From Deltaproteobacteria bacterium (GTDB taxonomy: Bacteria; Myxococcota; JADLHZ01): a stretch of 45,466 nt of DNA. Within the stretch, counting starts at the first letter, position 1; each line of letters starts with the position of its first letter. This document shows, piece by piece, positions 4,853 through 45,355 of the stretch. The stretch covers positions 1 through 45,466 of the forward strand of contig JADLHZ010000014.1 in assembly GCA_020848545.1 (NCBI GenBank). Direction: 5' to 3'. Below the pieces are notes generated by a model. The model had not been told where the DNA came from. It made no database searches and saw only the letters and a program-made list of their open reading frames with translations. The position numbers were made by a program, and so were the translations under genes.

Positions 4853-4909
4853 GGTCGTACCGTACACGGCAGGAAAAAGCTTGGCGAACTAATTTTACCC
4901 GGCGGTAAA

Positions 4910-5548
4910 CTACTTCTTGGTCACCCTAGGGCCCGCTTCGGACAGCACTTTCTTCAGCTCCGGATCGCCGCCATACAACGCATTCGCCGCCGACAGCGCC
5001 GCGTAGATCGGCTTCGCCTGCGCGCGCCGCGTCGCATCGAAGCCGACGGCGTCGCGAAAGTACGCCTTCGCCGCCTGGCGCAGCACGTCGGCCGGGAGCT
5101 GCACGACGAGCAACGCCGCGAGCGCGTCGAGCGCCGCATCGTTCTTGCCCGCCGCTTGCACGGTGATCGCGCCAGCGGCCTTCAGACGCTTCGTATCGTC
5201 GTCGGTCAGCCGCTTCCCGGAGGCGAGCAGCGCGTCGATCTCTGCGCCGATCGGCGCGAGGTCGCCGGTGAACGCAAGCGCCGAGATCACGCGCGACCAG
5301 AGCGCGTGCGCGTGCAGCGTCGCTACCTTGTCGAGCACTTGCTCCTTGTTCAGCGCCGCGATGAACGCTGCAAGCGCGTCGGGCGAGGCATCGTCGAGGC
5401 GCTTCTTCACGTCGGCGAAGCTGATGCGCTTGCCTTCGAGCACGATCGTCGGACCGGCAGCGGCCTGCGGCGGCGGCTTTTGAAACTTCGACGCGAATTT
5501 TTTGAACATCCGCTGTGTGAACGTCTGCTTGCCGGGGGTGAGCGCCAT
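4910..5548 (-). CDS. conserved-looking hypothetical protein
   Basis: 212 residues from ATG 5548 (MALTPGKQTFTQRMF). It is Ala/Leu-rich and predicted all-helical, with a basic N-terminus (FKKFASKFQK) and no signal peptide or membrane segment. No motif is recognised. It is the first gene of the minus-strand group; the next gene begins about 57 bp downstream of its stop, so co-transcription is likely. The promoter should lie in 5549-5672, shared divergently with nuoA. Codon use resembles its neighbours. Confidence 0.7.
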   Translation of the reverse strand: MALTPGKQTFTQRMFKKFASKFQKPPPQAAAGPTIVLEGKRISFADVKKRLDDASPDALAAFIAALNKEQVLDKVATLHAHALWSRVISALAFTGDLAPIGAEIDALLASGKRLTDDDTKRLKAAGAITVQAAGKNDAALDALAALLVVQLPADVLRQAAKAYFRDAVGFDATRRAQAKPIYAALSAANALYGGDPELKKVLSEAGPRVTKK

Positions 5549-5564
5549 GCGGGAACGGGATACT

Positions 5565-5608
5565 CGGCGACGGCGACGGCGACGTCAACGGCAACGTCGA
5601 CGTCCGCG
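5565..5608. repeat. GACGGC-rich intergenic repeat, copy 1
   Basis: Tandem GGCGAC units followed by GTCAACGGC and GTCGACGTC, placed between the divergent 5548 gene and nuoA. A 26-base stretch starting at 5565 is repeated exactly, in reverse complement, inside 45370-45407. A looser relative (CGGCGTCAACGGCGACGG) lies at 32399-32425. No reading frame here looks like a protein. Confidence 0.7.
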
Positions 5609-5672
5609 TGAAGATTCGGCGCGTTGACCGCGAGTCCGAACGACAATATACGGCCACGCGGAGGCGAGCCCT

Positions 5673-6029
5673 TTGTCCGAGAGTTACCTTCCGATCTTCA
5701 TCTTGTTCTTCGTCACTTTAGGCATCGGCGGCGCGATGCTCGGCCTGGCCTACGTGCTCGGGCCGCGCAAGCCGAGCGCGATCAAGGAGATGCCCTTCGA
5801 GTTCGGCAGCCCGAACATCGGCACCGCGCGTGAAAGATTCAGCGTCAAATACTACGTGACGGCGATCCTTTTCTTGGTCTTCGACATCGAATCAGTGTTC
5901 ATCTACCCGTGGGCCGTCCTCTTCCGCGAGCTTGGATGGTTCGGGTTCGTCGAGATGCTCGTGTTCGTGGCCTTCATTCTCGTCGGGCTCGTGTACGTGC
6001 TGAGAAAGGGAGCGCTCGAATGGGAATAA
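5673..6029 (+). CDS. nuoA: NADH-quinone oxidoreductase subunit A
   Basis: 118 residues, the normal size for NuoA, a small three-helix membrane subunit of complex I at the quinone-channel end of the membrane arm. The conserved loop [21 protein letters not shown] and the following [16 protein letters not shown] helix with its buried acidic residues are present. The start is a TTG at 5673, chosen because a GGAGG at 5660-5664 lies 8 bases upstream. It is the first gene of the cluster and overlaps nuoB by 10 bases. Confidence 0.97.
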
Positions 6030-6565
6030 CCAAAGCGCACAGCGGCAGCGACGGCGAAGTCCTGGTCACCCGCAAAGACGACGTACAAAATTGGATCAAG
6101 CGGCTCTTGAACGCCAAGGGTCCGCAGACCGCGGTCAACTGGAGCCGCAAGAACTCGCTCTTCCAATACCCGTTCGTGACCGCGTGCTGCGGCATGGAGT
6201 TCATGAGCGTGAGCTGCAGCCGCTACGACATCGCGCGTTTCGGCGCCGAGTTCCCGCGCTTCTCCCCGCGGCAGGCCGACCTGCTCATCGTCGTCGGCAC
6301 GGTGGTGCAGAAGCAGGCGCCGATCTTGCGCCGCGTCTACGATCAGATGGCGGAACCAAAGTGGGTCATCGCGTTCGGCGCATGCGCGTCGACCGGCGGC
6401 TTCTATCAGAACTACGCCGTCGTCGACGGCATCGACAACATCGTTCCCGTCGATGTGTACATCCCGGGCTGCCCGCCGCGCCCCGAACAAGTGCTCGACG
6501 GCCTGATGATGCTGCAAGAGAAGATCTCGCGTGAAACGGCGACGAAGCATCCGGTGATTGGTTAG
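6020..6565 (+). CDS. nuoB: NADH-quinone oxidoreductase subunit B
   Basis: 181 residues from ATG 6020; a longer frame upstream is only nuoA read in another frame. NuoB carries cluster N2, which passes electrons to quinone. All four ligands are visible: the tandem pair C56-C57 in TACCGMEF, C122 in GACAST and C151 in [16 protein letters not shown] ahead of the ATG serves as ribosome site. It overlaps nuoA by 10 bases, suggesting translational coupling. Confidence 0.98.
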
Positions 6566-6567
6566 TC

Positions 6568-7203
6568 ATGGCGCAAGTCATCCTCGACAAACTGCAGAAG
6601 AAGTTCGCCCACGCGATCATCGCCACGCACAACCGCTTCGGCAACGAGACCGCGGTCGTTCACAAGGAAGACCTCGTCCCGATCTGCGAGCTCTTGAAGA
6701 ACGATCCCGAGCTGCAGATGTCGATGATCATCGACGTCACCTGCGTCGACTGGTTCGAGGATCCTTCGCGCGTCGAGAAGCGGCCGGACGGCGAGCGCGC
6801 GCGCTTCGACGTCGTCTATCATTTGTATTCGCTCGAGCGCGGCCACCGCGTGCGCTTGAAGGTGCCGACCGACGGCGACCCGCCGCACGTGCCGAGCGTC
6901 TTCTCGGTGTGGAAAGGCGCCGACTGGTTCGAGCGCGAAGCGTACGACATGTACGGCGTCATCTTCGACGGCCACCCCGACTTGCGCCGCATCCTCCTGT
7001 ATCCCGAGTTCATCGGGCACCCGCTGCGCAAGGACTACCCGATCGACAGGAAGCAGCCGCTCATCGAGAACCGCCTGCGCGCGGTGAACTACGGAAAGAC
7101 CGGCGTCATGGGCGACGCGATGGTGTTGAACAACCCGCTCGTGCAGATCGGACGGCGGCGCGGATCAGAAGATTCTCCCGAAAAGAAGGCGCAGCATGGA
7201 TAA
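6568..7203 (+). CDS. nuoC: NADH-quinone oxidoreductase subunit C
   Basis: 211 residues. NuoC is the 30-kDa peripheral-arm subunit next to NuoD. The family signature is clear: ADWFEREAYDMYGVIFDGHP, then LRRILLYPEF and HPLRKDYP. It is separate from nuoD, unlike the nuoCD fusion of enterobacteria. It begins 3 bases after the nuoB stop and overlaps the nuoD start by 8 bases. Confidence 0.98.
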   Translation: MAQVILDKLQKKFAHAIIATHNRFGNETAVVHKEDLVPICELLKNDPELQMSMIIDVTCVDWFEDPSRVEKRPDGERARFDVVYHLYSLERGHRVRLKVPTDGDPPHVPSVFSVWKGADWFEREAYDMYGVIFDGHPDLRRILLYPEFIGHPLRKDYPIDRKQPLIENRLRAVNYGKTGVMGDAMVLNNPLVQIGRRRGSEDSPEKKAQHG

Positions 7204-8425
7204 GCCCGCTCCCGTGATCCCGACGGTTCATCCGGGTGAAGATCTCGCGCCCGACTTCGCGACGAAGGTCATGGAGATCAACCTCGGCCCGTCGCACCCG
7301 GCCATGCACGGCACGATCAAGCTGAACATGACGGTCGACGGCGAGACCATCGTCAGTATCGACCCCGATATCGGCTACTTGCATCGCGGCTTCGAGAAAG
7401 AGAGCGAGCGCGCCACCTGGACGCAGGTGATCCCGTACACCGATCGCCTCAACTATGTCTCGCCGCTGATCAACAACTTCGGCTACGTGCTCGCGGTCGA
7501 GAAGCTGCTCGGCATCAAAGCGACGCGCCGCTGCGACTACATCCGCACGATCATGAGCGAGCTGTCGCGCTTGAGCGACCACCTCACCTGCGTCGGCGCC
7601 GGCGCGATGGAGCTCGGCTCGTTCACGGGCTTCCTCTACTTGGTCGAAGCCCGCGAGATGATCTGGGAGCTCATCGAAGAAGTCACCGGCGCGCGCCTGA
7701 CGATCTCGTACGCGCGCGTGGGCGGCGTGACGGCGGACTTGCCCGAGCACTTCAAAGAGCGCTGCGAGAAGGTGTTGGACAAGGCGTTCCACCTGCTCGA
7801 CGACTTCCAAGCGATGGTGAAGAAGAACCGCATCTTCATCGATCGCATGGACGGCATCGGTGTGGTGCCGAAAGAAGACGCGATCGCGTGGGGCTTCACC
7901 GGCCCCTGCGGGCGCGCGAGCGGCATCCCGTACGACGTGCGCCGCGCGCATCCGTACTTTGCGTACGACGAGATCGACTTCGATGTGCCGATTGGCGAGA
8001 AGGGCGACAACTACGATCGCTACCTCGTGCGCGTCGAAGAGCTGCACCAGAGCCGCAAGATCCTCCAGCAAGCGTTCAAGCAGATCCCGGACGGCCCAGT
8101 GAACGTGCAGGACCCGCGCATCATGCTGCCGCCGAAGGAGCGCGTGTACGGCTCGATCGAAGGGCTCATCGGCCACTTCAAGATCGTGATCGACGGGATC
8201 AAAGTGCCGCGCGGCGAAGTGTATTCGTACGTCGAAGGCGGCAACGGCGAGCTCGGCTTCTACCTCGTGTCGAACGGCAGTGGCCACCCGTGGAAGTGCC
8301 GCGTGCGACCGCCGTGCTTTGCGATCATGCAGGGCCTGAAGCTGATGCTCGAGAAGTATCAAATCGCCGACATGGTGCCGACCTTCGGCAGCGTGAACAT
8401 GATCGGCGGCGAGTGCGACAGATGA
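7196..8425 (+). CDS. nuoD: NADH-quinone oxidoreductase subunit D
   Basis: 409 residues, typical of the 49-kDa subunit, which forms the quinone pocket with NuoB. Seen: NLGPSHPAMHGTIKL near the N-terminus (the quinone-site HP loop), IGYLHRGFEK, YTDRLNYVSP, and the C-terminal GGECDR ending that derives from the [NiFe]-hydrogenase large-subunit fold. The ATG at 7196 lies within the end of nuoC. Confidence 0.98.
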   Translation: MDKPAPVIPTVHPGEDLAPDFATKVMEINLGPSHPAMHGTIKLNMTVDGETIVSIDPDIGYLHRGFEKESERATWTQVIPYTDRLNYVSPLINNFGYVLAVEKLLGIKATRRCDYIRTIMSELSRLSDHLTCVGAGAMELGSFTGFLYLVEAREMIWELIEEVTGARLTISYARVGGVTADLPEHFKERCEKVLDKAFHLLDDFQAMVKKNRIFIDRMDGIGVVPKEDAIAWGFTGPCGRASGIPYDVRRAHPYFAYDEIDFDVPIGEKGDNYDRYLVRVEELHQSRKILQQAFKQIPDGPVNVQDPRIMLPPKERVYGSIEGLIGHFKIVIDGIKVPRGEVYSYVEGGNGELGFYLVSNGSGHPWKCRVRPPCFAIMQGLKLMLEKYQIADMVPTFGSVNMIGGECDR

Positions 8426-8435
8426 GGTTTTCGCC

Positions 8436-10046
8436 ATGCCGAAGTTGAACATTGACGGCCAGGACATCGAAGTACCCGCGGGCGAGAACCTCGTCCTCGC
8501 GGCGCGGCGCATCGGCGTCGAAGTGCCGGTCTTCTGCTACCACGAGAAGCTCTCGATCGCGGCGAACTGCCGCATGTGCCTCGTCGAGATCGAGAAGATG
8601 CCGAAGCTGCAGCCCGCGTGTCAGACGGTCGCGACGGACAACATGATCGTCAAGACGTCGTCGCCGAAGGTGATCGAAGCGCGCGCCGCGGTGATGGAGT
8701 TCTTGCTCGTCAACCACCCGCTCGATTGCCCGATCTGCGACAAGGCCGGCGAGTGCATGCTGCAAGACAACTACATGGGGCACGACGGCAAGTCCTCGCG
8801 GCAGCAGGACACGAAGACGGCCAAGCCGCGGCTCGAGGTGCTCGGGCCATTGGTGAACTACAACGCCGAGCGCTGCATCATGTGCACCCGCTGCGTGCGC
8901 TTCATGGACGAGATCCCGAAGAACACGCAGCTCGGCGTCTTCGGCCGCGGCGATCGCAACGTCATCGGCGTGTTCGACGGCAAGCCGCTCGACGATCCTT
9001 ACTCTTTGAACGTCGTCGAGCTCTGCCCCGTCGGCGCGCTCGGCTCGCTCGACTTCCGCTTCGAGAGCCGCGTGTGGTCGCTCGATAAGACGAACAGCGT
9101 CTGCGACGGCTGCAGCAAAGGCTGCAACACCGAGACGCACTCGAAGAAAGAGCACGTCTACCGCATGATCCCGCGGCGCAACGACAGCGTGAACGACACG
9201 TGGATGTGCGACGAGGGCCGCCTCTCGTATCACGCGCACGAAGAGCAGCGCGCCGAAGAGCCGCTGACCGACGGCAAGCGTGCGTCCGACGCGACAGCGT
9301 TGTCGGCGGCGCTCGGCGTGCTCGCGAACGCGGTGAAGGAGAAGGGCAACGGCTGGGGCGTGTTCATCTCGCCGACGCTGACGAACGAAGGCGCCTTCGC
9401 CTGGCTGAGCTACGTGAAGGCGAACATGGCGCAGGCGAAGGTGTACTTCAGCGGCCGCGCCGACGGCGTGGGCGACCAGCTGCTGCGCCGCGCCGACAAG
9501 AACCCGAACCGCGCCGGCATCAAAGCGATCGCCGAAGCGCTCGGCATCCCGGTCGGCACGTACACCGACGGCATCACCGCGAAGCCCCTGCGCGTCGTCA
9601 TGCTCGGCACCGAGACGCCAGACGATCGCATCTCGTCGATCGTCAACGCCGCGCAAGCGAGCTTGGTCATCGGCGCGCACCTCACCCAGGCGTTCAAGGG
9701 CGCAAAGGTGGCGCTGCTCTCGGGCACCGTGTTCGAGAGCGACGGATCGTTCGTGAACGAAGACGGCCGCGTGCAGCGCGTGCGGCCGTGCCACGGCGTG
9801 AAGTTCGCCGGCAAGTCGTACGCCGACTGGGCGGTGATGCTCTCGCAGGGGCTAGACAAGGCCGTCGGCGCCAAGACCTTCGCGTGGGCCAACACCGAGA
9901 GCGTCTTCGCCGATCTCGCCAACGCGGTGAAGGGCTTTAGCGGCATGCGCCTCCTCGGCCTCGGGCTGCATGGCAAGGCGCTCGGCTCTGGTCGCGCGAC
10001 CGAGTCGCCGTCACATCAACAAGCTTCATCTCCGGTGGGCGCGTAA
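8436..10046 (+). CDS. nuoG: NADH-quinone oxidoreductase subunit G with N7-type cysteine set
   Basis: 536 residues, short for NuoG (commonly about 690-910). Ligands can be read in order: [2Fe-2S] C34, C45, C48, C62; His-ligated cluster H94, C98, C101, C107; [4Fe-4S] C147, C150, C153, C197; then C223-x2-C226-x3-C230-x27-C258. The last spacing matches the N7 motif of E. coli and Thermus NuoG, which the mitochondrial and Paracoccus proteins lack. The molybdopterin-oxidoreductase-like remainder (about 265-530) is reduced. It follows nuoD directly, without nuoE or nuoF between. Its TAA overlaps the nuoH ATG (TAATG). Confidence 0.95.
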   Translation: MPKLNIDGQDIEVPAGENLVLAARRIGVEVPVFCYHEKLSIAANCRMCLVEIEKMPKLQPACQTVATDNMIVKTSSPKVIEARAAVMEFLLVNHPLDCPICDKAGECMLQDNYMGHDGKSSRQQDTKTAKPRLEVLGPLVNYNAERCIMCTRCVRFMDEIPKNTQLGVFGRGDRNVIGVFDGKPLDDPYSLNVVELCPVGALGSLDFRFESRVWSLDKTNSVCDGCSKGCNTETHSKKEHVYRMIPRRNDSVNDTWMCDEGRLSYHAHEEQRAEEPLTDGKRASDATALSAALGVLANAVKEKGNGWGVFISPTLTNEGAFAWLSYVKANMAQAKVYFSGRADGVGDQLLRRADKNPNRAGIKAIAEALGIPVGTYTDGITAKPLRVVMLGTETPDDRISSIVNAAQASLVIGAHLTQAFKGAKVALLSGTVFESDGSFVNEDGRVQRVRPCHGVKFAGKSYADWAVMLSQGLDKAVGAKTFAWANTESVFADLANAVKGFSGMRLLGLGLHGKALGSGRATESPSHQQASSPVGA

Positions 10047-11362
10047 TGGACAACGTGATGTGCAGTCAGGCCGACAAGTTCCTCGGCATGGTCCCTTACG
10101 ATTGGACGATGATCGTCATCGTCCCGGTCGCGAAGATTCTGTTCATCATCGCGGTCATCATCGGCCTGTACACACCGCTCGCGACGCTCGTCGAACGCAA
10201 GCTGTCGGCCGCGATGCAAGATCGCATCGGCCCGAATCGCGCGTACATCATCAAGGTCGGCGGCAAGCCGCTGACCATCTTCGGCCTCTTCCACACCATG
10301 GCCGATGCGCTGAAGATGTTCACCAAGGAGTGGACGACACCGAAGTCGGCGGACAAGTTCCTCTTCTACTTGGCGCCGGTCATCGGCCTCGTGCCGGCGC
10401 TCTTGACCTTCGCCGTCATCCCCTTCGGCCCACCGATCCAAGTCTGTGATCGCGTGGTGCCCCTGCAGATCGCGTCGATCAACGTGGGCGTCTTGTTCAT
10501 CTTCGCCGTCGGATCGATGGGCGTGTACTCGGCGGCGCTCGCCGGCTGGGCGTCGAACAACAAGATGGCCTTGCTCGGCGCGCTGCGGGCGTCGGCGCAG
10601 TCGATCTCGTACGAGATCACCTTCGGCCTGACGCTCGTCGGCTTGATGATGGTGTTTCATACCGTGCGCTTGGACAGCATGGTCGCCCAGCAGGTGGATC
10701 TGCTGCACTGGGGCGTGTTCCTCCAGCCCCTGGCCTTGGTGCTCTTCTTCACCGCGGCGATGGCCGAGAACAAGCGCATCCCCTTCGACCTCCCCGAAGG
10801 CGAGAGCGAGATCGTCGGCTACTTCGTCGAATACTCGTCGATGGGCTTCGGCCTGTTCATGACCACCGAGTTCATCGAGATGAGCGCGATCGCGTTTCTG
10901 ACGACGGCGCTCTTCTTCGGCGGCTACACGGTGCCGACTTGGGTGGCGACGGATCACTCGTTCGCCATGTGGAACGTCGCGTCCGAGCTGTGGCCGGCGG
11001 CGTTCTTCGCGATTCAGATGGCGGCGTTCTTCTTCAAGGTGACCGTCCTATGGCTCTTTCAGTTCGTCGTGCGCTGGGCGTTGCCGCGCTTCCGCTACGA
11101 TCAACTGATGCGCCTCGGCTGGCGGATCATGCTGCCTTTGTCGCTGGCGAACATCGCCGTCACCGCGATCGCGATCTTGGCCGCGGACGGCGACGCCGCG
11201 AAGGGCACCGAGTACGTGATGATGACGGGGCTCGTGATGATCGGGCTCTTTGTGTTGTCGTTGTTCTACAGTCGGAAGCCGAGACAGAGCGGGGATTCCG
11301 GCCACGGCCACGATCACGGCCACGATGAACAGCAGGCGACCGTCGCGGCAGCGCATCACTAG
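10046..11362 (+). CDS. nuoH: NADH-quinone oxidoreductase subunit H
   Basis: 438 residues, longer than the common 325-350. NuoH is the membrane subunit joining the peripheral arm to the proton-pumping arm. Conserved pieces: LVERKLSAAMQDRIGPNRA, then IPFDLPEGESEIV with the acidic loop and FVEYSSMGFGLFM. The extra length lies partly at the C-terminus, which ends in a His/Asp/Gly-rich tail (SGHGHDHGHDE) after the last helix and might bind metal. The 1-base TAATG overlap with nuoG fixes the start. Confidence 0.97.
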   Translation: MDNVMCSQADKFLGMVPYDWTMIVIVPVAKILFIIAVIIGLYTPLATLVERKLSAAMQDRIGPNRAYIIKVGGKPLTIFGLFHTMADALKMFTKEWTTPKSADKFLFYLAPVIGLVPALLTFAVIPFGPPIQVCDRVVPLQIASINVGVLFIFAVGSMGVYSAALAGWASNNKMALLGALRASAQSISYEITFGLTLVGLMMVFHTVRLDSMVAQQVDLLHWGVFLQPLALVLFFTAAMAENKRIPFDLPEGESEIVGYFVEYSSMGFGLFMTTEFIEMSAIAFLTTALFFGGYTVPTWVATDHSFAMWNVASELWPAAFFAIQMAAFFFKVTVLWLFQFVVRWALPRFRYDQLMRLGWRIMLPLSLANIAVTAIAILAADGDAAKGTEYVMMTGLVMIGLFVLSLFYSRKPRQSGDSGHGHDHGHDEQQATVAAAHH

Positions 11363-37147: not shown

Positions 37148-37221
37148 TGGGGAATCGTTCAATGGTAGGACAGCAGACTCTGAATTTGCTTATCTAGGTT
37201 CGAGTCCTAGTTCCCCAACCA
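37148..37221 (+). tRNA. tRNA-Gln (anticodon CUG), integration site
   Basis: 74 bases with encoded CCA. Acceptor TGGGGAA pairs with TTCCCCA; the anticodon arm GCAGA-CTCTGAA-TTTGC gives anticodon CTG; the T-loop reads GGTTCGAGTCC. The gene is intact. Its last 23 bases (37199-37221) are repeated with one change at 43297-43319 and more diverged at 45333-45355, which marks it as an attachment site of mobile elements. Confidence 0.95.
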
Positions 37222-37305
37222 TCTAACTTCCCGCCAGCATTGAAGAACGCGATCGCCTGTAACAGGCTGTAAGTTCGGGTCGGAATTGAGCGCGGTTTTC
37301 GGGTC
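37199..37305. repeat. attL-like repeat: tRNA-Gln 3' end plus left end of element 1
   Basis: 107 bases: the last 23 bases of tRNA-Gln and the following ATCTAACTTCCCGCC segment to about 37305. They match 43297-43408 with five substitutions and a 5-base indel (near 37266). In reverse complement the equivalent stretch at 43297-43408 has an open frame (AIAFFNAGGKLDGWG); here the 5-base deletion breaks it. Confidence 0.85.
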
Positions 37306-37696
37306 CAACACCACGAGATTTCTTCCGCCCGGGCTCGTCGGGCTCAAAGAGATTGGCGCTCGCTACTTCAAGCACTTCGCGTTCACGAACCGCTCGATCC
37401 ACAAAGAAGTCCTGCGCCTGACGCTGCTCTGCGAGCTCTTTGGCGACACCGAGGTCGCCTCCGCGATCGACGAGGTGATGCGCACCGGCCACGTTGGCGG
37501 CGAGTACGTCGAGTTCGTCTTGCGCCAAAAACGAGGCCTCGTTCCGAACGCGACGCCGCTGCGCCTCGGCAACGACGAGCTCGACGCGCTCAGCCTCAGT
37601 GCACCCAACCTCGCGCGCTACGACGACGAATGCGCCGCACGCATGACGAGGGACCCAGGCCCATTACCGGCAAACGCCGACGGAGAGAACGCATGA
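37286..37696 (+). pseudogene. istA: IS21-family transposase IstA, C-terminal fragment
   Basis: The plus frame encodes only the end of an IstA transposase: KEVLRLTLLCELFGDT, GHVGGEYVEFVLRQKRG and a final LSAPNLARYDDEC, the usual C-terminal region. The DDE catalytic core and N-terminal HTH are missing. The fragment begins directly where the att repeat ends (about 37306), so the upstream part was lost at this junction. It overlaps istB by 4 bases (ATGA), the normal istAB arrangement, which supports the call. Confidence 0.75.
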
Positions 37697-38439
37697 CGAA
37701 CGACGACGACATCTCGCTGCTGATCGACAAGCTCAAATGGCTCCGCCTCCCTGGCATGGCCGAGGCGATCACGGCCCTGCTCGAGCTGCAGCGGAAGAAA
37801 AATCTTTCTACGCTCGAAGTGCTCGGGCGCCTCTGCGACGACGAGAAACAAAGCCGCATGGGCCGCGCCGTCGAGCGCCGCATCCACGCCGCGCGCTTTC
37901 CGGAAGTGAACACGATCGACCAGTTCGATTTCGACTTCGAGGCGGGCAGAAAGAAAATGCGCGCGCGGTACATCGCGCTTCATGACCTCAGCTTCATCGA
38001 CAAAGGCATCAACCCGCTGTTCATCGGCACGCCCGGCACGGGCAAGACGTTTCTCGCCCGCAGCCTCGCGTACAAAGCCTGCCAGTCGAACCGCCGTGTC
38101 GTGTGCACGTCTGCGCCGCGCATGCTCAACGAGCTTCACGGCGCAGAGCTGCACGGCTCGCTCGATAAGGCGCTGCGCCGCTATGTGAAGGCCGACCTGT
38201 TGCTCATCGATGACTTCGCCGTGCTCGCGATGGACCCGGCGCAGGCGAAGCTCGCCTTCTCCGTGATCTCCGATCGCTACGAATATCGGCGCTCAACGGT
38301 GATCACCACCAACCGCGTGTTCAAGGACTGGCCGAAGGTCTTCCCCGACGCGCTCAACGCCGAGGTCATTGCCAAGCGGCTCACCGAACGCTGCGAACAC
38401 TTCGTTCTCGACGGGAGGCCGTTCATCGCCACGAAATGA
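37693..38439 (+). CDS. istB: IS21-family helper ATPase IstB
   Basis: 248 residues from ATG 37693, normal length for IstB, the AAA+ ATPase that helps IstA transpose. Walker A is GTPGTGKT (about residue 113-120) and Walker B LLLIDDFAVL; a sensor-like ITTNR is present. The gene looks intact, but without a full IstA it should not move the IS by itself. Confidence 0.95.
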   Translation: MTNDDDISLLIDKLKWLRLPGMAEAITALLELQRKKNLSTLEVLGRLCDDEKQSRMGRAVERRIHAARFPEVNTIDQFDFDFEAGRKKMRARYIALHDLSFIDKGINPLFIGTPGTGKTFLARSLAYKACQSNRRVVCTSAPRMLNELHGAELHGSLDKALRRYVKADLLLIDDFAVLAMDPAQAKLAFSVISDRYEYRRSTVITTNRVFKDWPKVFPDALNAEVIAKRLTERCEHFVLDGRPFIATK

Positions 38440-38584
38440 CGCGGCTCGATCGCCGCGCACCGCCTCGACGGGAAGGATCCGTAGCTCCCGCCGCCACGCG
38501 ATCGCCGCGCTCTGCTCGCGGCGCCGCCGACGTGCGCCGAGCGATCTGCGTCGCTCGGGCGGAAAACCGCGACGAAATCACCGG

Positions 38585-38645
38585 GTGGGCAACGGTACAC
38601 CGGTGGAACCGCTGAAAGTGGTACACGCGGGCGCCGGTGGCGACA
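38585..38645. mobile_element. probable right end of the IS21-family element
   Basis: The stretch has repeated GGTGG/GGTAC blocks (GGTGGAACCGCTGAAAGTGG and neighbours) and ends GGTGGCGACA at 38645, whose complement begins TGTCGCCACC; multiple short terminal repeats and a TG...CA end are the IS21 pattern. Beyond it, a different minus-strand coding fragment starts abruptly. No gene is seen in 38440-38584, which is GC-rich and simply joins istB to this end. Confidence 0.5.
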
Positions 38646-38813
38646 GACGCGCTTCAACGTCTTCGTTGACCGCTCGATCTCCACGAGGAAGCGCTTCGTG
38701 TCGGTCTCGATGACGACGTCGGGGAACACGCGACGATCGTGCCTGCGCTCGCTGCTCTTTCTGTCTTTCCGTTCCCTTCCACCTGACTTTGCATCTCCAT
38801 CATTCGCCTCCAT
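38646..38813 (-). pseudogene. gene fragment cut by the IS21 right end
   Basis: The minus frame reads MEANDGDAKSGG, a charged stretch, then RRVFPDVVIETDTKRFLVE and IERSTKTLKRV, where it meets the IS end. The PDVVIETD...FLVEIERST block looks like the nuclease-like core of replication-relaxation-type proteins, but the family is uncertain. Start and end are approximate; the C-terminus was removed by the IS. Confidence 0.4.
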
Positions 38814-38894
38814 CCTCTGTCCCAGGACCCATCGCTGCCCGCTTGCTCTTCGCTTTCTCGTTCCCGCCCCGCTCCCTGGCCCCACCGACAAAGG

Positions 38895-38934
38895 GGAGAC
38901 CACCATCCCGAGTCGTTGCGGGAGGGTGGTCTCC
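38895..38934. terminator. strong hairpin, possible terminator
   Basis: GGAGACCACC (38895-38904) pairs with GGTGGTCTCC (38925-38934), extended inward by CCCG/CGGG around a short loop. No T-run follows on either strand, so it may instead be a REP-like or recombination structure. It lies in non-coding debris between the IS end and the transposase relic. Confidence 0.35.
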
Positions 38935-39089
38935 ACTGTCCGCGCAAGCGGTGGCGGCGGGGCCAGGGAGCCGAGCTTGCTCGGGATTCCTTGCCGTCAA
39001 CGCGGTCTTCACGCGGGCAACACCGGGACGCGCTGCGGACGCAACCGGGACGCCTGGCGGACACATATCCGCCGGCGGATCTTTATGCA

Positions 39090-39371
39090 ACTGTAATTAC
39101 GTTGCACGATCGCAGTGACGACGAAGCCTCAGTGCACTTCGTTGCCGCCCCCGCGTTGACTCCCAAAGAGCTTTGGTGCTCGTCCCCGGCCAGGCCCGCG
39201 GGCCTAATCACTCGCATTGCCTCTCGCCTCGAGCGATTGCTCGAGCGACGCGGCCTTCGCCACTCACCCGACGACGAACCTACGCAGCTCGAGCTGCTCG
39301 CCATGAAGGTGCCTGCGTCGGCAACCGGCCAGGAGGCCGCGGCAAACGCGAGCTTTGTTCGCGGGTAGTCG
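39090..39371 (+). pseudogene. degenerate transposase relic (IS91-like C-terminal region)
   Basis: In the plus frame, VHFVAAPALTPKELW, then GLITRIASRLERLLERRGL and a DDEPTQLELLA segment resemble the region between the zinc and catalytic domains of large IS91-type transposases, which often read 'V..R+..LL.RRGL'. No start, no catalytic core and no ends are left. The rest of 38935-39523 holds nothing else I can support. Confidence 0.35.
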
Positions 39372-39523
39372 CAGTACGTGCTGCAGCAGGAGAAAGCGTT
39401 TCGATACGCACGGCTTCTCGATGCAGAAGCTCGTCGAGCGCGAGAAGGGCGAAAGCTCGGCCCTGCTCTCGATGCTCGCAGCGGACGCTATGCGGAAGAT
39501 CGACCGAAGGCGAATGCTTTGCT

Positions 39524-42394
39524 TCATTGGCGAGGGACCGACAGAACGAAGCTCGACCACGGATGCGCCGCCCGCAAAGTGGGGTTCTGCCTTCCCTCGG
39601 ACATCGCCCCTACACGCTCGGTGACGTAGTCAGCCAGGGTGCGCACGTTGACCCCACCTTCCTCCGTGGCGCCAGGGTTTTTCAGGGCGTCGAGAACGGC
39701 CTTGGTGAAGAAGCCGTTCTTGAACTCGCTCGACTCGAAAGACAGCTCATCGCCGCCCGACGACGACAGCACGGTGGCTCCAAGCTCCACTTGCAAGGTT
39801 GCGAGCGTGACGTGCCGCGTTGCACGAAGAGACTCGCGGGTCGACGTTCCGATCGTTTTCGAGCGCATACCCCGTGTGAGCGTCGTCGCGGGCGCTGCAT
39901 GCGTTGGGAATCGATAGTCATCGGTGACGAGACGTGCGTTCGCTTTGACGCTGGAAGGCTGGCCACCCGAATGGCAGGTGTCGAGCAGCAGCAGGCGGTG
40001 GCGGGCGTTGGTCTTGGCGAACAGCTCGCTCAACTCTTGCAGCGCGAAGCCGCGTTCTTCGGGGCGGTCGATGGAAACATCGTGGGTGGCATAATAGTAA
40101 CGGCCGGTCGCGGTGACGAAGCCGTGGCCGGCCAAGAAGACGACGACTGCGTCTCCCGGGCCAGCGTTCGCAAAAAAGGCCGCGCTGCTGGCGATCGCTT
40201 CTCGGGTGACCGCGCCGTCGAGAAGTGTCTTCTTTCGCACCGCAGAAAACTTGGTGCTGTCGCCGAGCGCCTCCGCGAGGTCGGCCGCATCCTTGGCGGC
40301 GTAGTCGAGGGCGAGCGCAGGATCGTCGTAACGCGAGACACCGATGGCGAGCACATGGAGCGTGGGTTTGCCTCGGTCGCTCGGCGCGACGAGCTCGATG
40401 CTCAGAGTGTCGGACGCGGTGTGTGCGCCGCTCGCCGTCTCTCCCTCGATCTGGATCGCGTTCGGCCCTGGCAGCAACTGGAGCTCGACCGTCGCGCTCG
40501 TCGTGTTCTTCACCGCGCGTCGAACGCTGATGCCGTTGATACGAACGTGCACCGCCACGAGCGGCACCGGCGACTCCACCGTCAAGGCAGAGCTCGCGTT
40601 TTTCGTCAGCACGTCCGGCCATCGCCCGAGCGTCGGCTGCGCCTCGGTCATCGGGCGCATGGCGCGTCGCTCGTGTGCGAGACGATAGGCGTCGACGAGG
40701 GCGGTGTTGCGCGAGCCGATTCGAGCGAGGACCAAGTCTGGTCGCTGCCGAGCTCCTTCGAGCTCCGCGAGCGGCCGCACCCGCTCGCCGTCGCGTACGG
40801 ACATGAAGCGGTCGGCGCTCCCTTCGCTGACGTAGTCACCTTCCGGCGTATACGCGATCCACGCGCCCAGCGTGTCGGCAACGAAAGTGGCGAGCAATCT
40901 CTGGGAGGGAACGTCCCAGAGCTTGCTGGTCGCGTCGTGGCTCGTGGTCAGGAGACGTCGTCCGTCCTTGCTCAAGCTGTGAGTGATGACGGGGGCCGTG
41001 TGGCCGACGAAGACGAGCGGCGCGCCGCTCATCGGTTTCAAGCAAAAGTCCCTGTCGTCGACACAAACGGCGCTGACGAGACGAGACTTCGGAGCGAGCT
41101 CGGGATGAGACTGCTTGCTCAACGCTCGCCACAGCTCGTCGCACGGCTGGTGCGCATCCTTGTAGAAGCCGTTTTCGAGCGTGACCTCGGCGGGCTCCTC
41201 TTTTCCGTACGACCACAGCGTGGTCGCAAACCGGTCGCCATTCTTCCACTCGGCCGCGAGGACGTGCACGCCGTCCTCGTGCATGCAGAGCTTTCTGAAG
41301 GGCCTACTTTGCGGTTGGGTCTTCGTGAAGCTCGCGGTCGCCTTCTGCACGTCCACAATCGATTGCGCAAAGCCGTCGAGCATGAGCGCGAATCGCCCAC
41401 CGACGAAAGGATACAGGCGCAGTGGATCGCGCAGGCGGTTGCGCTGTAGGTCTGCGAAGTTTGCCGCGGCAAACGACTCGCGCAACTCGGAGACGTTCCA
41501 GAGCCGGGCAGAGCGCGGACTCGCGACCGCAAGCAAGACGTCCCCTTCGTCGTTGAAGCTGACTGCTGGCGCCTCCGTGACCGCAGCGGTGAAGCGCTCG
41601 CTGCCAGCGCCGAGCACCCGATCCCAGACGAGCGTCTGGTTGTTGGCCACGCATGTGATCCATCGCGCGCCGTGCGGCCGGCAGTTCTCGTACTGCATGC
41701 CGTCGACGAGCATCCTGCGCGGGAGCGGCGCGCCGGCAAGCGAGCACAGAGGCGCGATGGGGTCGCTTGCAGGAACCGAAGAGCACTTGTTCGATACGCG
41801 AGGTGTCGGGTTTCCTGAGGAGAGATCGAAGACGTCGAGCCGCGTCGGCCCCTCGGCGGCGGCGAACGCTACAGCGACGAAGCGTTCGTCCATCGAAAAG
41901 GTGATGAGATGTGGAGTGCCCGCTGCACTTAGCGAAACGCGCTTGCGTTCCTTGGCGTCCATCACGAGCGCCACAACGAGCGTGCCGCTCTTTTCGCCTT
42001 CGGCTTGCTCTACCCACGCGATCTTCGCCCCGCTCGTGGAGACGGCGAAGCGATCGCCTACACGAAGATCGCCCACGCGCTTTCGCAGAGGGCCGGCGCG
42101 ATCGAAGATCCAGACCTCGGTGTCGCTCGCGCCGGCGACGATCTGTCCGTCCGGGCTGAACGTCACGACGTTAGGTCTGTGGGCCATGTGCATGGAGCGA
42201 AGGAAGAGTCGCCGGCGAAAGTCCCAGACATCGAGAGCTCCGCCCCGCGCCCTGACGTTCATCTGTCCCGCGGCGGCGTAAAACTCAGCCGCGGCGCTGA
42301 TCGCGGCGTCGTCCGTCCGGCCGCGCTTCGGCGCGAAGACGAAGGTCGGAGCATCCGCGACCGAGGTGACGACCCATAGAAGGGATAGGAACAT
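39524..42394 (-). CDS. secreted WD40-caspase (peptidase C14) protein
   Basis: 956 residues from ATG 42394, chosen because MFLSLLWVVTSVADA is a signal peptide; a TTG at 42484 overlapping the brnA stop would add 30 residues before it. Residues about 20-560 form WD40-like blades (FSPDGQIVAGASDTEVWIFD, LSKDGRRLLTTSHDATSKLWD). A beta-rich linker follows (about 560-670), then a caspase domain: LHVLAIGVSRYDDP, His757 in FLAGHGF and Cys807 in LLLDTCHSGG, 50 residues apart, a complete dyad. Known: bacterial caspase-like proteases act in signalling, cell death and defence; WD40 often gates them. A signal peptide would place this one outside the cytoplasm, unusual for phage defence. Main cargo of element 1. 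Confidence 0.88.
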   Translation of the reverse strand: MFLSLLWVVTSVADAPTFVFAPKRGRTDDAAISAAAEFYAAAGQMNVRARGGALDVWDFRRRLFLRSMHMAHRPNVVTFSPDGQIVAGASDTEVWIFDRAGPLRKRVGDLRVGDRFAVSTSGAKIAWVEQAEGEKSGTLVVALVMDAKERKRVSLSAAGTPHLITFSMDERFVAVAFAAAEGPTRLDVFDLSSGNPTPRVSNKCSSVPASDPIAPLCSLAGAPLPRRMLVDGMQYENCRPHGARWITCVANNQTLVWDRVLGAGSERFTAAVTEAPAVSFNDEGDVLLAVASPRSARLWNVSELRESFAAANFADLQRNRLRDPLRLYPFVGGRFALMLDGFAQSIVDVQKATASFTKTQPQSRPFRKLCMHEDGVHVLAAEWKNGDRFATTLWSYGKEEPAEVTLENGFYKDAHQPCDELWRALSKQSHPELAPKSRLVSAVCVDDRDFCLKPMSGAPLVFVGHTAPVITHSLSKDGRRLLTTSHDATSKLWDVPSQRLLATFVADTLGAWIAYTPEGDYVSEGSADRFMSVRDGERVRPLAELEGARQRPDLVLARIGSRNTALVDAYRLAHERRAMRPMTEAQPTLGRWPDVLTKNASSALTVESPVPLVAVHVRINGISVRRAVKNTTSATVELQLLPGPNAIQIEGETASGAHTASDTLSIELVAPSDRGKPTLHVLAIGVSRYDDPALALDYAAKDAADLAEALGDSTKFSAVRKKTLLDGAVTREAIASSAAFFANAGPGDAVVVFLAGHGFVTATGRYYYATHDVSIDRPEERGFALQELSELFAKTNARHRLLLLDTCHSGGQPSSVKANARLVTDDYRFPTHAAPATTLTRGMRSKTIGTSTRESLRATRHVTLATLQVELGATVLSSSGGDELSFESSEFKNGFFTKAVLDALKNPGATEEGGVNVRTLADYVTERVGAMSEGRQNPTLRAAHPWSSFVLSVPRQ

Positions 42395-42480: not shown

Positions 42481-42738
42481 TCAACCCGCCCGTTGCATCT
42501 CCTCGCGAACGATGTCGCGAATTTCGTCGCGCAGGGCACGCGGTGAAGAAGACATGCGCTCGCGCAAGAGCATGTTCAGCAGCGTCTGATACCCGATGCC
42601 GCGCTTCTCAGCCTCGGCGTTGAGCCACGTGAGCACCTCGGCGTCGAGGCGGATCGTCTTCAGCACCTTCGCCTTCTTCGAAAGCACCGCGCCGCGCCGC
42701 TTCACCTTCATCCGCTTCAAGTCATATTCCTTCTTCAT
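42481..42738 (-). CDS. brnA: BrnA-type antitoxin
   Basis: 85 residues from ATG 42738. Begins MKKEYDLKRMKVKRRGAVL, then KTIRLDAEVLTWLNAEAE, the ribbon-helix-helix N-terminal strand and helix typical of BrnA. Known: it binds BrnT and represses the operon. It overlaps the upstream brnT by 17 bases, the usual toxin-first order. Confidence 0.85.
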   Translation of the reverse strand: MKKEYDLKRMKVKRRGAVLSKKAKVLKTIRLDAEVLTWLNAEAEKRGIGYQTLLNMLLRERMSSSPRALRDEIRDIVREEMQRAG

Positions 42739-43000
42739 ACTGCTTCCTTTCTCGCTTCGTCGCCTGGCGCGCCGAGATGATCCGGATCGTCTCGCCCTCC
42801 CGTTCCGTATGCACCACCAAGATCAACCGCTGCCGGTACGAGTGACCGATGGTCAGCTCTCGCACCTCGGTGTAGTGGCCGTCGTCCTCGAACGTCACGG
42901 CGAGCGGGTCCTGCAAGGCAGACACGGCCTCGTCGAACGAGACGCCGTGCTTCTTGAGGTTTGATTCGGCCTTCTTCTCGTTCCATTCGACGTTCAACAA
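42722..43000 (-). CDS. brnT: BrnT-type ribonuclease toxin
   Basis: 92 residues if started at TTG 43000, about the family length. No ATG exists near the start; GGAG (43014-43011) lies 10 bases before this TTG, and a second TTG follows at 42997. BrnT marks: VEWNEKKAESNLKKHGVSFDEA, DPLAVTFEDDGH, then ILVVHTEREGETIRIISARQATKRERKQYE. Known: a RelE-like ribonuclease neutralised by BrnA. The weak TTG start may keep toxin below antitoxin. Confidence 0.85.
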   Translation of the reverse strand: MLNVEWNEKKAESNLKKHGVSFDEAVSALQDPLAVTFEDDGHYTEVRELTIGHSYRQRLILVVHTEREGETIRIISARQATKRERKQYEEGI

Positions 43001-43035
43001 GTGTAGTTTACTCCGTAAATACAAAGTAACAACAG

Positions 43036-43374
43036 CTATTTCAGCAGCCGAACGACCGCTTCGAGGATGGTGAGCGCCTCTGCTCGGTCGCCAACATCGA
43101 GCCGAGCAAGCGCCTGCTCGGCGAGCCCGCGGGCGAGACTTGTGACGATTGTGACAGTGCTACGCCGAGACGGCTCGACAGGGCTTTCGACGGTCATCGA
43201 GCCCGATCGCACCTCCCCTTCAACATCGCCGACATGCGTTTCACACGGCGAAATACGGGTCGAAACGGCTTTCGGAAAATCGCCGTCCGGAGCCCTTCGA
43301 GTCCTACTTCCCCAACCATCTAACTTCCCGCCAGCATTGAAGAACGCGATCGCCTGTAACAGGTTGTGTAACAA
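43036..43374 (-). pseudogene. integrase-tail-like ORF reading through the att core (right end of element 1)
   Basis: The frame begins in the left-end sequence of element 2 (LLQAIAFFNAGGKLDGWG), crosses the reversed tRNA 3' end (SRTRR), and continues into element 1 as HVGDVEGEVRSGSM, then ESPVEPSRRSTVT and LARLDVGDRAEALTILE. A copy of the second half is at 45070-45333. Across 18 shared codons (SLARGL to LDVGD) eight differ silently and two change the residue, so the protein was under selection. I infer the tail of an integrase with attP inside its gene; the catalytic part is absent. Confidence 0.5.
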
Positions 43375-43408
43375 GTTCGGGTCGGAATTGGCCGCGGTCT
43401 TCGGGTCT
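43297..43408. repeat. att junction between element 1 and element 2
   Basis: 112 bases: GAGCCC from the right end of element 1 precedes TTCGAGTCCTACTTCCCCAACCA (43297-43319), one base off the tRNA-Gln 3' end, followed by the ATCTAACTTCCC left-end sequence as at 37222. It has an extra 5 bases at about 43367. It is both the right boundary of element 1 and the left boundary of element 2. Confidence 0.85.
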
Positions 43409-43671
43409 AGCGTAGCTTAGCTAGAGAGATGAACGTGCGCCGGAAATCGTGCTGCCGCCTGACGAAGAGTGCGTGAAGACGGCGCGACTGATCGAACGCG
43501 CGCTTTTGTATCTTCTGGTGGAAGCGAGGCGTGGAATCGACGAGGCCTGCGCGTTCCGAGATGATCCAATGGCAGCAAAAGCGCAAAAGCAGCAAAGACG
43601 AAGCGAGAAACGGAGGCCGCAGACCCCGCTTCGGTTTCCACATAGTTTCTCGATTCGACCTATTTTTCGGT
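43409..43671. other. intergenic stretch without recognised gene
   Basis: About 260 bases between the att junction and hepT. Short frames exist on both strands, but none carries a motif or a ribosome site I trust, and the composition is more AT-rich near 43550-43680. It may hold integrase debris or the toxin-antitoxin terminator. Confidence 0.4.
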
Positions 43672-44004
43672 TCAGGGAGGCAACGCGTCCAGCATGATGA
43701 TCAACTTCGGAACGTCCATCATCACCGTGTCCCAGAGCCGGTCCTCGTCGACGTTCATGTAGTTGTGCACGATGAAGTGCCGCATCCCGATGATCTGCCG
43801 CCACGGGATCTCCGGGTGCGCGTCGCGGAACGACTCTTCCACCCGCCGCGCAGCTTCGCCGATGATCTGGACGAGGTACGCGAGCGCGAGGCGCAGGTTC
43901 TCGTCGGCGTCGTAGTCTTGCCGCGACTTGCCGGCGAGCTTCACCGTGATCTTCTCAGCGGTGTCGCGCATGTGCCCGATGAAGACGCGATGGTCCTTAG
44001 CCAT
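43672..44004 (-). CDS. hepT: HepT-type ribonuclease toxin
   Basis: 110 residues. The catalytic Rx4HxY motif of HEPN nucleases is present as RHFIVHNY, with the usual upstream LAYLVQIIGEAARRV helix. Known: HepT cleaves RNA and is inactivated by AMPylation of its Tyr by MntA. It lies directly after mntA, overlapping by 8 bases. Confidence 0.92.
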   Translation of the reverse strand: MAKDHRVFIGHMRDTAEKITVKLAGKSRQDYDADENLRLALAYLVQIIGEAARRVEESFRDAHPEIPWRQIIGMRHFIVHNYMNVDEDRLWDTVMMDVPKLIIMLDALPP

Positions 44005-44290
44005 AGAGCGGCTTTGCTTCGGCGAGCACGCGGTCGCGAATGCGGGCGTTGAGCGCCTTCGGGCTCACGAGATCAACACTTCGCCCACCAGCGGCCTTCG
44101 AGAGCTCGTCGGCGATGAAGCCGAGGCCCAGGAAGCCTACGCGCACGTCGGGCTCGAATTCGATCAGCAGATCGACGTCGCTGTCCGGACGGAGTTCGCC
44201 GCGCGCGCCGGAGCCGAAGACGGCCAGGCGCCTGATACGGTGGCGCCGGCACACCTCGCCGATCAGCTCGCGGTCGATCTTCAGCTCCAT
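43997..44290 (-). CDS. mntA: MntA-type nucleotidyltransferase antitoxin
   Basis: 97 residues from ATG 44290 (MELKIDRELIG); the longer frame upstream is not typical. The minimal nucleotidyltransferase motif is FGSGARGELRPDSDVDLLIEF (GS and DxD metal ligands). Known: MntA transfers AMP to HepT. Gene order mntA-hepT and the overlap are as usual. Confidence 0.92.
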   Translation of the reverse strand: MELKIDRELIGEVCRRHRIRRLAVFGSGARGELRPDSDVDLLIEFEPDVRVGFLGLGFIADELSKAAGGRSVDLVSPKALNARIRDRVLAEAKPLYG

Positions 44291-44415
44291 GATTCTCTCA
44301 AGATAGCACGCATGCGCCGGCCTTGTCCCGCCGGAACCCAGCCGCTTGCCCGCCGCCGAATGAGGGGTAGAATCCCGGGATGCCCGACCGAAAGCTAGGC
44401 GCCGCCCATAAGCGC

Positions 44416-44574
44416 TCAATCTACCATCGACGTGAGATCGAGCGGAGCGAGCGGTGTGCGTGCTTCCACTGCTTCGCGGAATTTGCGCCCAGTGGGATCA
44501 AGGAATGGGTGGATGACAACGACACTGCGACCTGACCCAATGACCAGGCGTGCATCGCCAGACGCGGCGCTCAC
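44416..44574 (-). pseudogene. possible C-terminal gene remnant
   Basis: The minus frame ends with RLVIGSGRSVVVIHPFLDP, TGRKFREAVEAR and TPLAPLDLTSMVD, which reads like a genuine protein C-terminus. Upstream it runs into the opposite-strand DUF6714-like gene and loses sense. Family unknown; it may be what is left of a gene replaced by its neighbour. Confidence 0.3.
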
Positions 44575-45060
44575 ATGACTGAGGTAGAGCGAAACATCGA
44601 GCCGCTTCGCAAACAACTCTTGTCGGCCTTCGCTGCGGTTCCGCGCCCCAGTAACGATCGCATCGCTCTTCACGACTGCACGGAGTGCGCACAGGTTCGC
44701 CGAGACTATGCCAGCCAGGCCCCCGCAAGCTTCGATCGCGAGATCGTAAAGGTTCACTTCGATTCGCTGCCGCTGTTGTCGCCCGAGGCTTTCCGCTACT
44801 TTGTCGTGGCGCACATGACGTACGCCCTCGAGTGGCCCGACTCCACGGTCGCCGAGTTCGTGCTCTACGCATTGGCCCCGAAGGAGTTTGACGATTTCTA
44901 TCGCGAACGATTCGCGCTGTTCTCTTCAGAGCAGCGGCACGCGGTTATCGCGTTCCTCGAGTTCATGCGGTCTCAGCAGATTGATCCAGAGGAAGGAGCC
45001 GACCGTGAGCGCGAGCCAGAGATAACCGCCGGAATCGATGTCTGGCGGTCGCTGGCGTGA
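44575..45060 (+). CDS. DUF6714-like protein
   Basis: 161 residues from ATG 44575. The centre, FDSLPLLSPEAFRYFVVAHM, followed by an acidic, hydrophobic helix (STVAEFVLYALAP) and FSSEQRHAVIAFLEFM, matches the general pattern of DUF6714 proteins. Function unknown; such small acidic proteins are often found near toxins. Lies on the opposite strand from mntA/hepT in element 2. Confidence 0.6.
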   Translation: MTEVERNIEPLRKQLLSAFAAVPRPSNDRIALHDCTECAQVRRDYASQAPASFDREIVKVHFDSLPLLSPEAFRYFVVAHMTYALEWPDSTVAEFVLYALAPKEFDDFYRERFALFSSEQRHAVIAFLEFMRSQQIDPEEGADREREPEITAGIDVWRSLA

Positions 45061-45069
45061 GCGGCGATC

Positions 45070-45333
45070 TCATTCGCGAAGCAGCTCCAGAGCGGCATGC
45101 AACAGAGAGCGCGTCACCGCCGCGTCGCCGACATCCAATCGCGCGAGCGCTTGCGCGACGAGCCCACGGGCCAAACTTGTGACGCTTGTGACAGTGCTAC
45201 GCCGAGACGGCTCGACCGGGCTTTCGAGGGCTAAAGGCGACGATCGCAATTCGTCTTCAACGTCGCCGACATGTGTTCCAGGCGGCGAAACACGGTTCGA
45301 AACGTCGCTCGCGGAAACACCGTTCTGAGCCCT
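45070..45333 (-). pseudogene. integrase-tail-like ORF, right end of element 2
   Basis: The frame reads from the third att-like core into NGVSASDVSNRVSPPGTHV, GDVEDELRSS, ESPVEPSRRSTVT and LARLDVGDAAVTRSLLH, ending LELLRE. It is the counterpart of 43036-43296 and the two share a DNA block of about 50 bases with almost no change (45174-45224). No ATG is available, only a TTG inside, so it is probably not a gene on its own. Confidence 0.5.
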
Positions 45334-45355
45334 TCGAGTCCTAGTCCTTCGACCG
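45333..45355. repeat. diverged third copy of the tRNA-Gln 3' end (right boundary of element 2)
   Basis: TTCGAGTCCTAGTCCTTCGACCG against the tRNA end TTCGAGTCCTAGTTCCCCAACCA: 18 of 23 bases match, the first 13 exactly. It is preceded by GAGCCC as at 43291. The ATCTAACTTCCC left-end sequence does not follow, so the array ends here. Confidence 0.65.

Follow-up and report, generated by a model that had tools for sequence, protein, structure and literature searches.

The locus described here raises the question of whether a caspase homologue, encoded on a mobile element directly behind a BrnT/BrnA toxin-antitoxin pair, acts outside the cytoplasm and what it might do there. The initial annotation had described an exported WD40-caspase that could serve contact-dependent killing, predation or envelope stress sensing. 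Analysis of the window, that is, the whole stretch of DNA under study (45,466 nucleotides, from a Deltaproteobacteria bacterium of the Myxococcota), indicates a WD40-caspase that is intact and probably exported. It is of a known kind, an ordinary representative of a bacterial family that is widespread, and sits on a tRNA-Gln island. The features of the locus are given in Table 1.

Table 1. Positions of the WD40-caspase gene, its domains and the surrounding island features in the window.
Feature	Position	Strand	Evidence or remark
tRNA-Gln(CTG), likely attachment target	37148..37221	+	
attL-like repeat: tRNA-Gln 3' end plus 84 nt	37199..37305	+	
Possible IstA C-terminal relic	37286..37696	+	inferred from position
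IstB-like IS21 helper ATPase	37630..38439	+	PF01695, 178 bits
WD40-caspase gene	39524..42394	-	956 aa; dyad H757/C807
Peptidase_C14 (caspase p20-like) domain, residues 681-944	39563..40354	-	Pfam + fold
WD40 propeller, residues ~24-497	40904..42325	-	Pfam repeat + fold match
N-terminal hydrophobic leader (residues 1-15), which may be a signal peptide or anchor	42350..42394	-	weak alone
BrnA antitoxin, directly upstream of WD40-caspase	42481..42738	-	PF14384, 34.4 bits, cut-off 26.1
BrnT RNase toxin, overlaps brnA	42722..43024	-	PF04365, 98.6 bits, cut-off 34.5
Element-end repeat beside 43296 core	43074..43317	.	
attR-like repeat	43296..43407	+	91% over 107 aligned bases, genome's only other copy
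Second element-end repeat, degenerate tRNA core at 45333	45111..45354	.	77-81% identical

The WD40-caspase and its domains

The open reading frame, read and translated from an ATG at 42394 to a stop at 39524 on the minus strand, has the extent, orientation and dyad residues (H757 and C807) reported in the initial annotation; all 956 codons are open and third-position G+C is 0.79. The Peptidase_C14 match (E 1.4e-17, 64.6 bits against a gathering score of 21.4) includes H757 within AGHG and C807 within DTCHSG, and this dyad was invariant in 8/8 proteins of the same genome and in all 19 aligned relatives. By the Pfam match and the dyad the protein belongs to peptidase family C14 (caspase-like), and protease activity is predicted. 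The long WD40 region noted previously was recovered as a propeller that begins immediately behind the leader, with a single repeat above the Pfam cut-off (37.7 bits vs 27) and a fold match.

Structure prediction, proposed earlier as a check, returned both the caspase and the propeller folds. The AlphaFold2 model, built from 11 sequences, had a low mean pLDDT of 54, including over the propeller; residues 1-15 fell under 50, and the first strand was placed at residues 17-20. In this low-confidence model the propeller (residues 24-497) matched ODA16 with Z 23.3 in the fold search, which, together with the repeat over cut-off, marks the protein as a predicted WD40 propeller protein. The C14 domain was modelled well in large part (10-residue block means up to 95 within residues 681-760), and residues 676-953 matched Arabidopsis metacaspase 4 (Z 21.9), MALT1 (Z 21.4) and the bacterial GSU0716 (Z 20.7). 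MALT1 and the Arabidopsis metacaspases are alike in the C14 fold but are eukaryotic and carry other accessory domains.

The closest known counterparts are the WD40-bearing prokaryotic metacaspases or orthocaspases (PMC3501461, PMC5756287, PMC8283722), which, in the available parts of these papers, share the C14 p20-like domain, the His-Cys dyad, the WD40 repeats (found in 73/671 metacaspases in PMC3501461 and described as common in orthocaspases in PMC5756287 and PMC8283722) and multiple copies in the genomes of developmentally complex bacteria. The N-terminal helix is shared too, and the available part of PMC3501461 (2012) regards such helices in bacterial metacaspases as likely signal peptides and the extracellular forms as perhaps fratricidal; an exported caspase with WD40 repeats is consequently no novelty. 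The propeller of the present protein is N-terminal, whereas accessory domains in orthocaspases are mostly C-terminal to the protease in the portions available of PMC5756287 and PMC8283722. A linkage of metacaspases to mobile elements was not found in the part of PMC3501461 available. The EACC1-associated caspases, presented in the accessible part of PMC7159879 as a conflict system at the membrane, bear some likeness, the caspase domain here scoring 89.6 bits with NF047832, although this lies under the cut-off of 140 bits and no EACC1-like gene was recognised adjacent.

The N-terminal leader and probable export

The leader, MFLSLLWVVTSVADA, has a hydrophobic core, which is weak; it is short, lacks a positive n-region (no K or R ahead of the core), and its possible AxA cleavage site would place a proline at +1, which hinders signal peptidase. 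Its hydropathy peaks at 2.08 over 10 residues, a value that falls short of a strand inside the propeller (2.20), was equalled or exceeded by 26 of 126 control ORFs of the same genome at their first ATG, and is the weakest among the 19 aligned proteins, all of which reach at least 2.08, a figure biased by hand-picked starts. The sole alternative in-frame start further upstream is a TTG at 42484, in overlap with the stop codon of brnA; no ATG, GTG or TTG lies between it and 42394. ATG 42394 is favoured as the start, since the nearest paralogue has its leader in the same place and scant room for an upstream start.

For the family survey 40 ORFs were taken, including Planctomycetota proteins in which, by eye, a C14-like stretch precedes the propeller, and one (L084) without the dyad motifs; four were open at the 5' end, which left 36. 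Over candidate starts, a leader of at least 1.9 hydropathy was present in 35/36 of these 5'-complete relatives vs 81/225 control ORFs treated alike, the sole exception (L081) reaching 1.70; of the 39 ORFs scored, 6 showed a lipobox pattern. Although weak taken alone, the leader makes export credible because it is common in the family, and export or membrane anchoring of the WD40-caspase is likely by family inference. The signal peptide proposed in the initial annotation is only plausible for this protein itself. The nearest paralogue, at 30% identity, retains five of the eight non-catalytic cysteines (C217, C238, C248, C444 and C451), which would fit disulphides in an oxidising compartment and lends weak support, 5/8 being not far above chance.

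The tRNA-Gln island

The WD40-caspase sits on a tRNA-bounded island, with the tRNA-Gln 3' end duplicated at the far boundary: the last 23 bases of the tRNA and a further ~84-85 nt recur 6.1 kb away, with 22/23 tRNA bases matching, which confirms the mobile-element linkage suggested earlier. The 23-base core occurs three times in the window, at 37199 (0 mismatches), 43296 (1) and 45333 (5). The first module comprises IstB, the WD40-caspase and BrnA-BrnT, with ~1 kb lacking recognisable genes (38440-39500). No family match to IstA was found for the ORF 37286-37696, and a reading of IstB as an anti-phage gene, through a DrmD match, was set aside as IstB models score far higher. The window is a whole contig, the far side lying beyond its end; no tyrosine integrase (PF00589) matched on this contig, compared with 35 matches elsewhere in the genome, and mobility was therefore past or helped in trans.

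A second small module (43319-45355) holds HepT-MntA and a DUF6714 protein and shows the same element-end repeat with a degenerate tRNA-Gln core, so that both modules contain a toxin-antitoxin pair. Because the last two cores are each preceded by a copy of one repeated stretch, the two modules seem to lie in tandem, and the second is possibly a tandem integrase-less island.

Paralogues and relatives

The genome of origin (G000; 8.0 Mb in 163 contigs) gave 17 Peptidase_C14 matches and eight complete WD40-caspase ORFs, including that of the window, plus one (L025) cut by a contig end. The class-level search for relatives covered this genome only; at E 1e-20 no relative was found outside it among 58 genomes searched, and at 1e-8 there were matches in 88 of 195 genomes, mostly to the caspase domain alone. 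Among these 195 genomes, strong phylum-level matches occurred only in G065 (three) and G148 (one), with a weaker match in G067 covering part of the propeller and the caspase. A contig scan with the single protein gave 20 stretches that matched a pattern, none confirmed as a relative; a further contig scan yielded 32 loci, spread over Bacteroidota, Myxococcota, Spirochaetes, Planctomycetes, Pseudomonadota, Holophagaceae and others. The G148 locus (L093:4949-10790) carries a lipobox-bearing WD40-caspase and, 116 bases after it, a second C14 caspase that weakly matches DUF4384.

In the tree, the sister of the WD40-caspase was the own-genome paralogue L021:8438-11263 on contig C23 (support 100/100); clustering of the own-genome copies was not supported (6 changes vs 6.4 for shuffles). 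This paralogue has the same order of leader, WD40 and caspase but only 30% identity and no tRNA within its 17.6 kb locus, and its neighbour in tail-to-tail orientation is a second WD40-caspase, preceded by AbiEi/AbiEii.

Toxin-antitoxin neighbours

BrnT and BrnA, both over their Pfam cut-offs, overlapping and intact, are by sequence a type II toxin-antitoxin pair, and as the initial annotation had it they lie directly upstream of the WD40-caspase on the same strand, in an operon-like order. In 45 loci (499,547 bases), tblastn with BrnT and BrnA gave 0 hits, so that a conserved BrnTA linkage was rejected, and HepT, MntA, IstB and the other neighbours likewise gave 0 hits.

In the genome, a toxin-antitoxin operon precedes three of the eight complete WD40-caspase genes, BrnTA in one case and AbiE in two. 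At L021:5079-8291, AbiEi and AbiEii precede the gene with 436 bases between. No convincing same-strand upstream gene was present at L021:8438 or L022, an ORF without family precedes L023, and a PD40-like protein below cut-off precedes L026. Against this, none of the 13 upstream neighbours scanned at loci of other genomes (L058, L059, L060, L062, L064, L065, L066, L067, L069, L074, L085, L091 and L093) was a toxin-antitoxin gene (p ~0.04 for 3/8 vs 0/13). The whole genome has 10 AbiEii and 3 BrnT matches. With eight toxin genes of two families, the binomial tail for 3/8 is 6.6e-7, rising to 0.004 if 150 toxin-antitoxin genes are allowed, in a test that assumes 7000 genes and ignores gene clustering in islands. 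The excess, picked after the fact, is suggestive and could reflect both kinds of gene gathering in islands.

Other arrangements were seen at the paralogues. In L021 (G000:C23:20000-37641), positions 3178-11263 hold AbiEi/AbiEii and then the two tail-to-tail WD40-caspases, one being the closest relative. In L024 (G000:C1:36000-55000) a WD40-caspase (5923-9348) begins ~90 bases after an AbiEii gene; the 57 kb contig that holds it also encodes a tyrosine integrase, ParB and a Replic_Relax protein and has the look of a plasmid or an integrative element. At L027:4982-8946 a PD-(D/E)XK nuclease gene lies 9 bases upstream on the same strand.

Discussion

We favour, at a probability of roughly 0.6, an exported or membrane-anchored, propeller-gated protease of the orthocaspase type, carried as cargo of a small integrase-less tRNA-Gln island directly behind brnT-brnA and in the same direction of transcription. 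The leader would carry the protein across the inner membrane, to be cleaved or kept as an anchor, and the protease would work in the periplasm or at the cell surface, where its substrates may be envelope proteins. The propeller may dock or sense a protein partner and so hold or release the C14 domain, which would cut through H757/C807, probably after basic residues, by analogy with the S1 preference in the orthocaspase literature (orthocaspases do not cut after Asp, in the part of PMC5756287 available). The brnT-brnA pair may hold the island in place and may set expression of the WD40-caspase.

It is possible, though unlikely, that the protein is instead a cytoplasmic defence protease, its hydrophobic stretch being the first propeller strand or another non-exported segment, and that it forms an intracellular abortive-infection unit with BrnTA. 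Leader hydropathy no higher than that of an internal strand suits this account, as do a weak PADLOC caspase match (E 1.5e-11), the sub-threshold EACC1-type score and neighbours of a defence-like kind, namely HepT-MntA within the window and, at paralogues, AbiE and the PD-(D/E)XK nuclease. However, in relatives from several phyla the corresponding position holds a clear leader or lipobox, and no STAND, NACHT or EACC1 partner was recognised among the genes scanned.

The initial annotation's exported killer of neighbouring cells, acting in fratricide or predation, appears improbable: the family-wide leader and the metacaspase suggestion in the available part of PMC3501461 speak for it, but the genes examined around the WD40-caspase included no secretion system, immunity gene or delivery module, the lipoprotein form of some relatives points to retention on the producer, and no result here supports contact killing over envelope proteolysis. 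No more credible is an inactive passenger, a remnant without present function in a decaying island; the possible IS21 relic, the gene-poor stretch and the missing tyrosine integrase would agree with decay, but the fully open frame with its third-position G+C, the intact dyad and the intact BrnT and BrnA argue against it.

Beyond the preferred reading of an exported or anchored protease, a more speculative and rather doubtful proposal is that, in this lineage, a toxin-antitoxin operon and a leader-bearing WD40-caspase make up a mobile pair that recurs, with the operon upstream and the exported protease downstream, so that element loss or envelope damage would be answered by two linked lethal enzymes, inside and outside the inner membrane. 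Neither of the two papers that turned up with BrnT, BrnA and caspase together has a title on a link between them. In this locus an inserted element clearly carries a leader-bearing caspase homologue behind a toxin-antitoxin pair, and the recurring toxin-antitoxin neighbour is the part of the finding most worth following. If the pairing is functional, it would open a test of extracytoplasmic action by bacterial caspase homologues, a possibility raised in the available part of PMC3501461.
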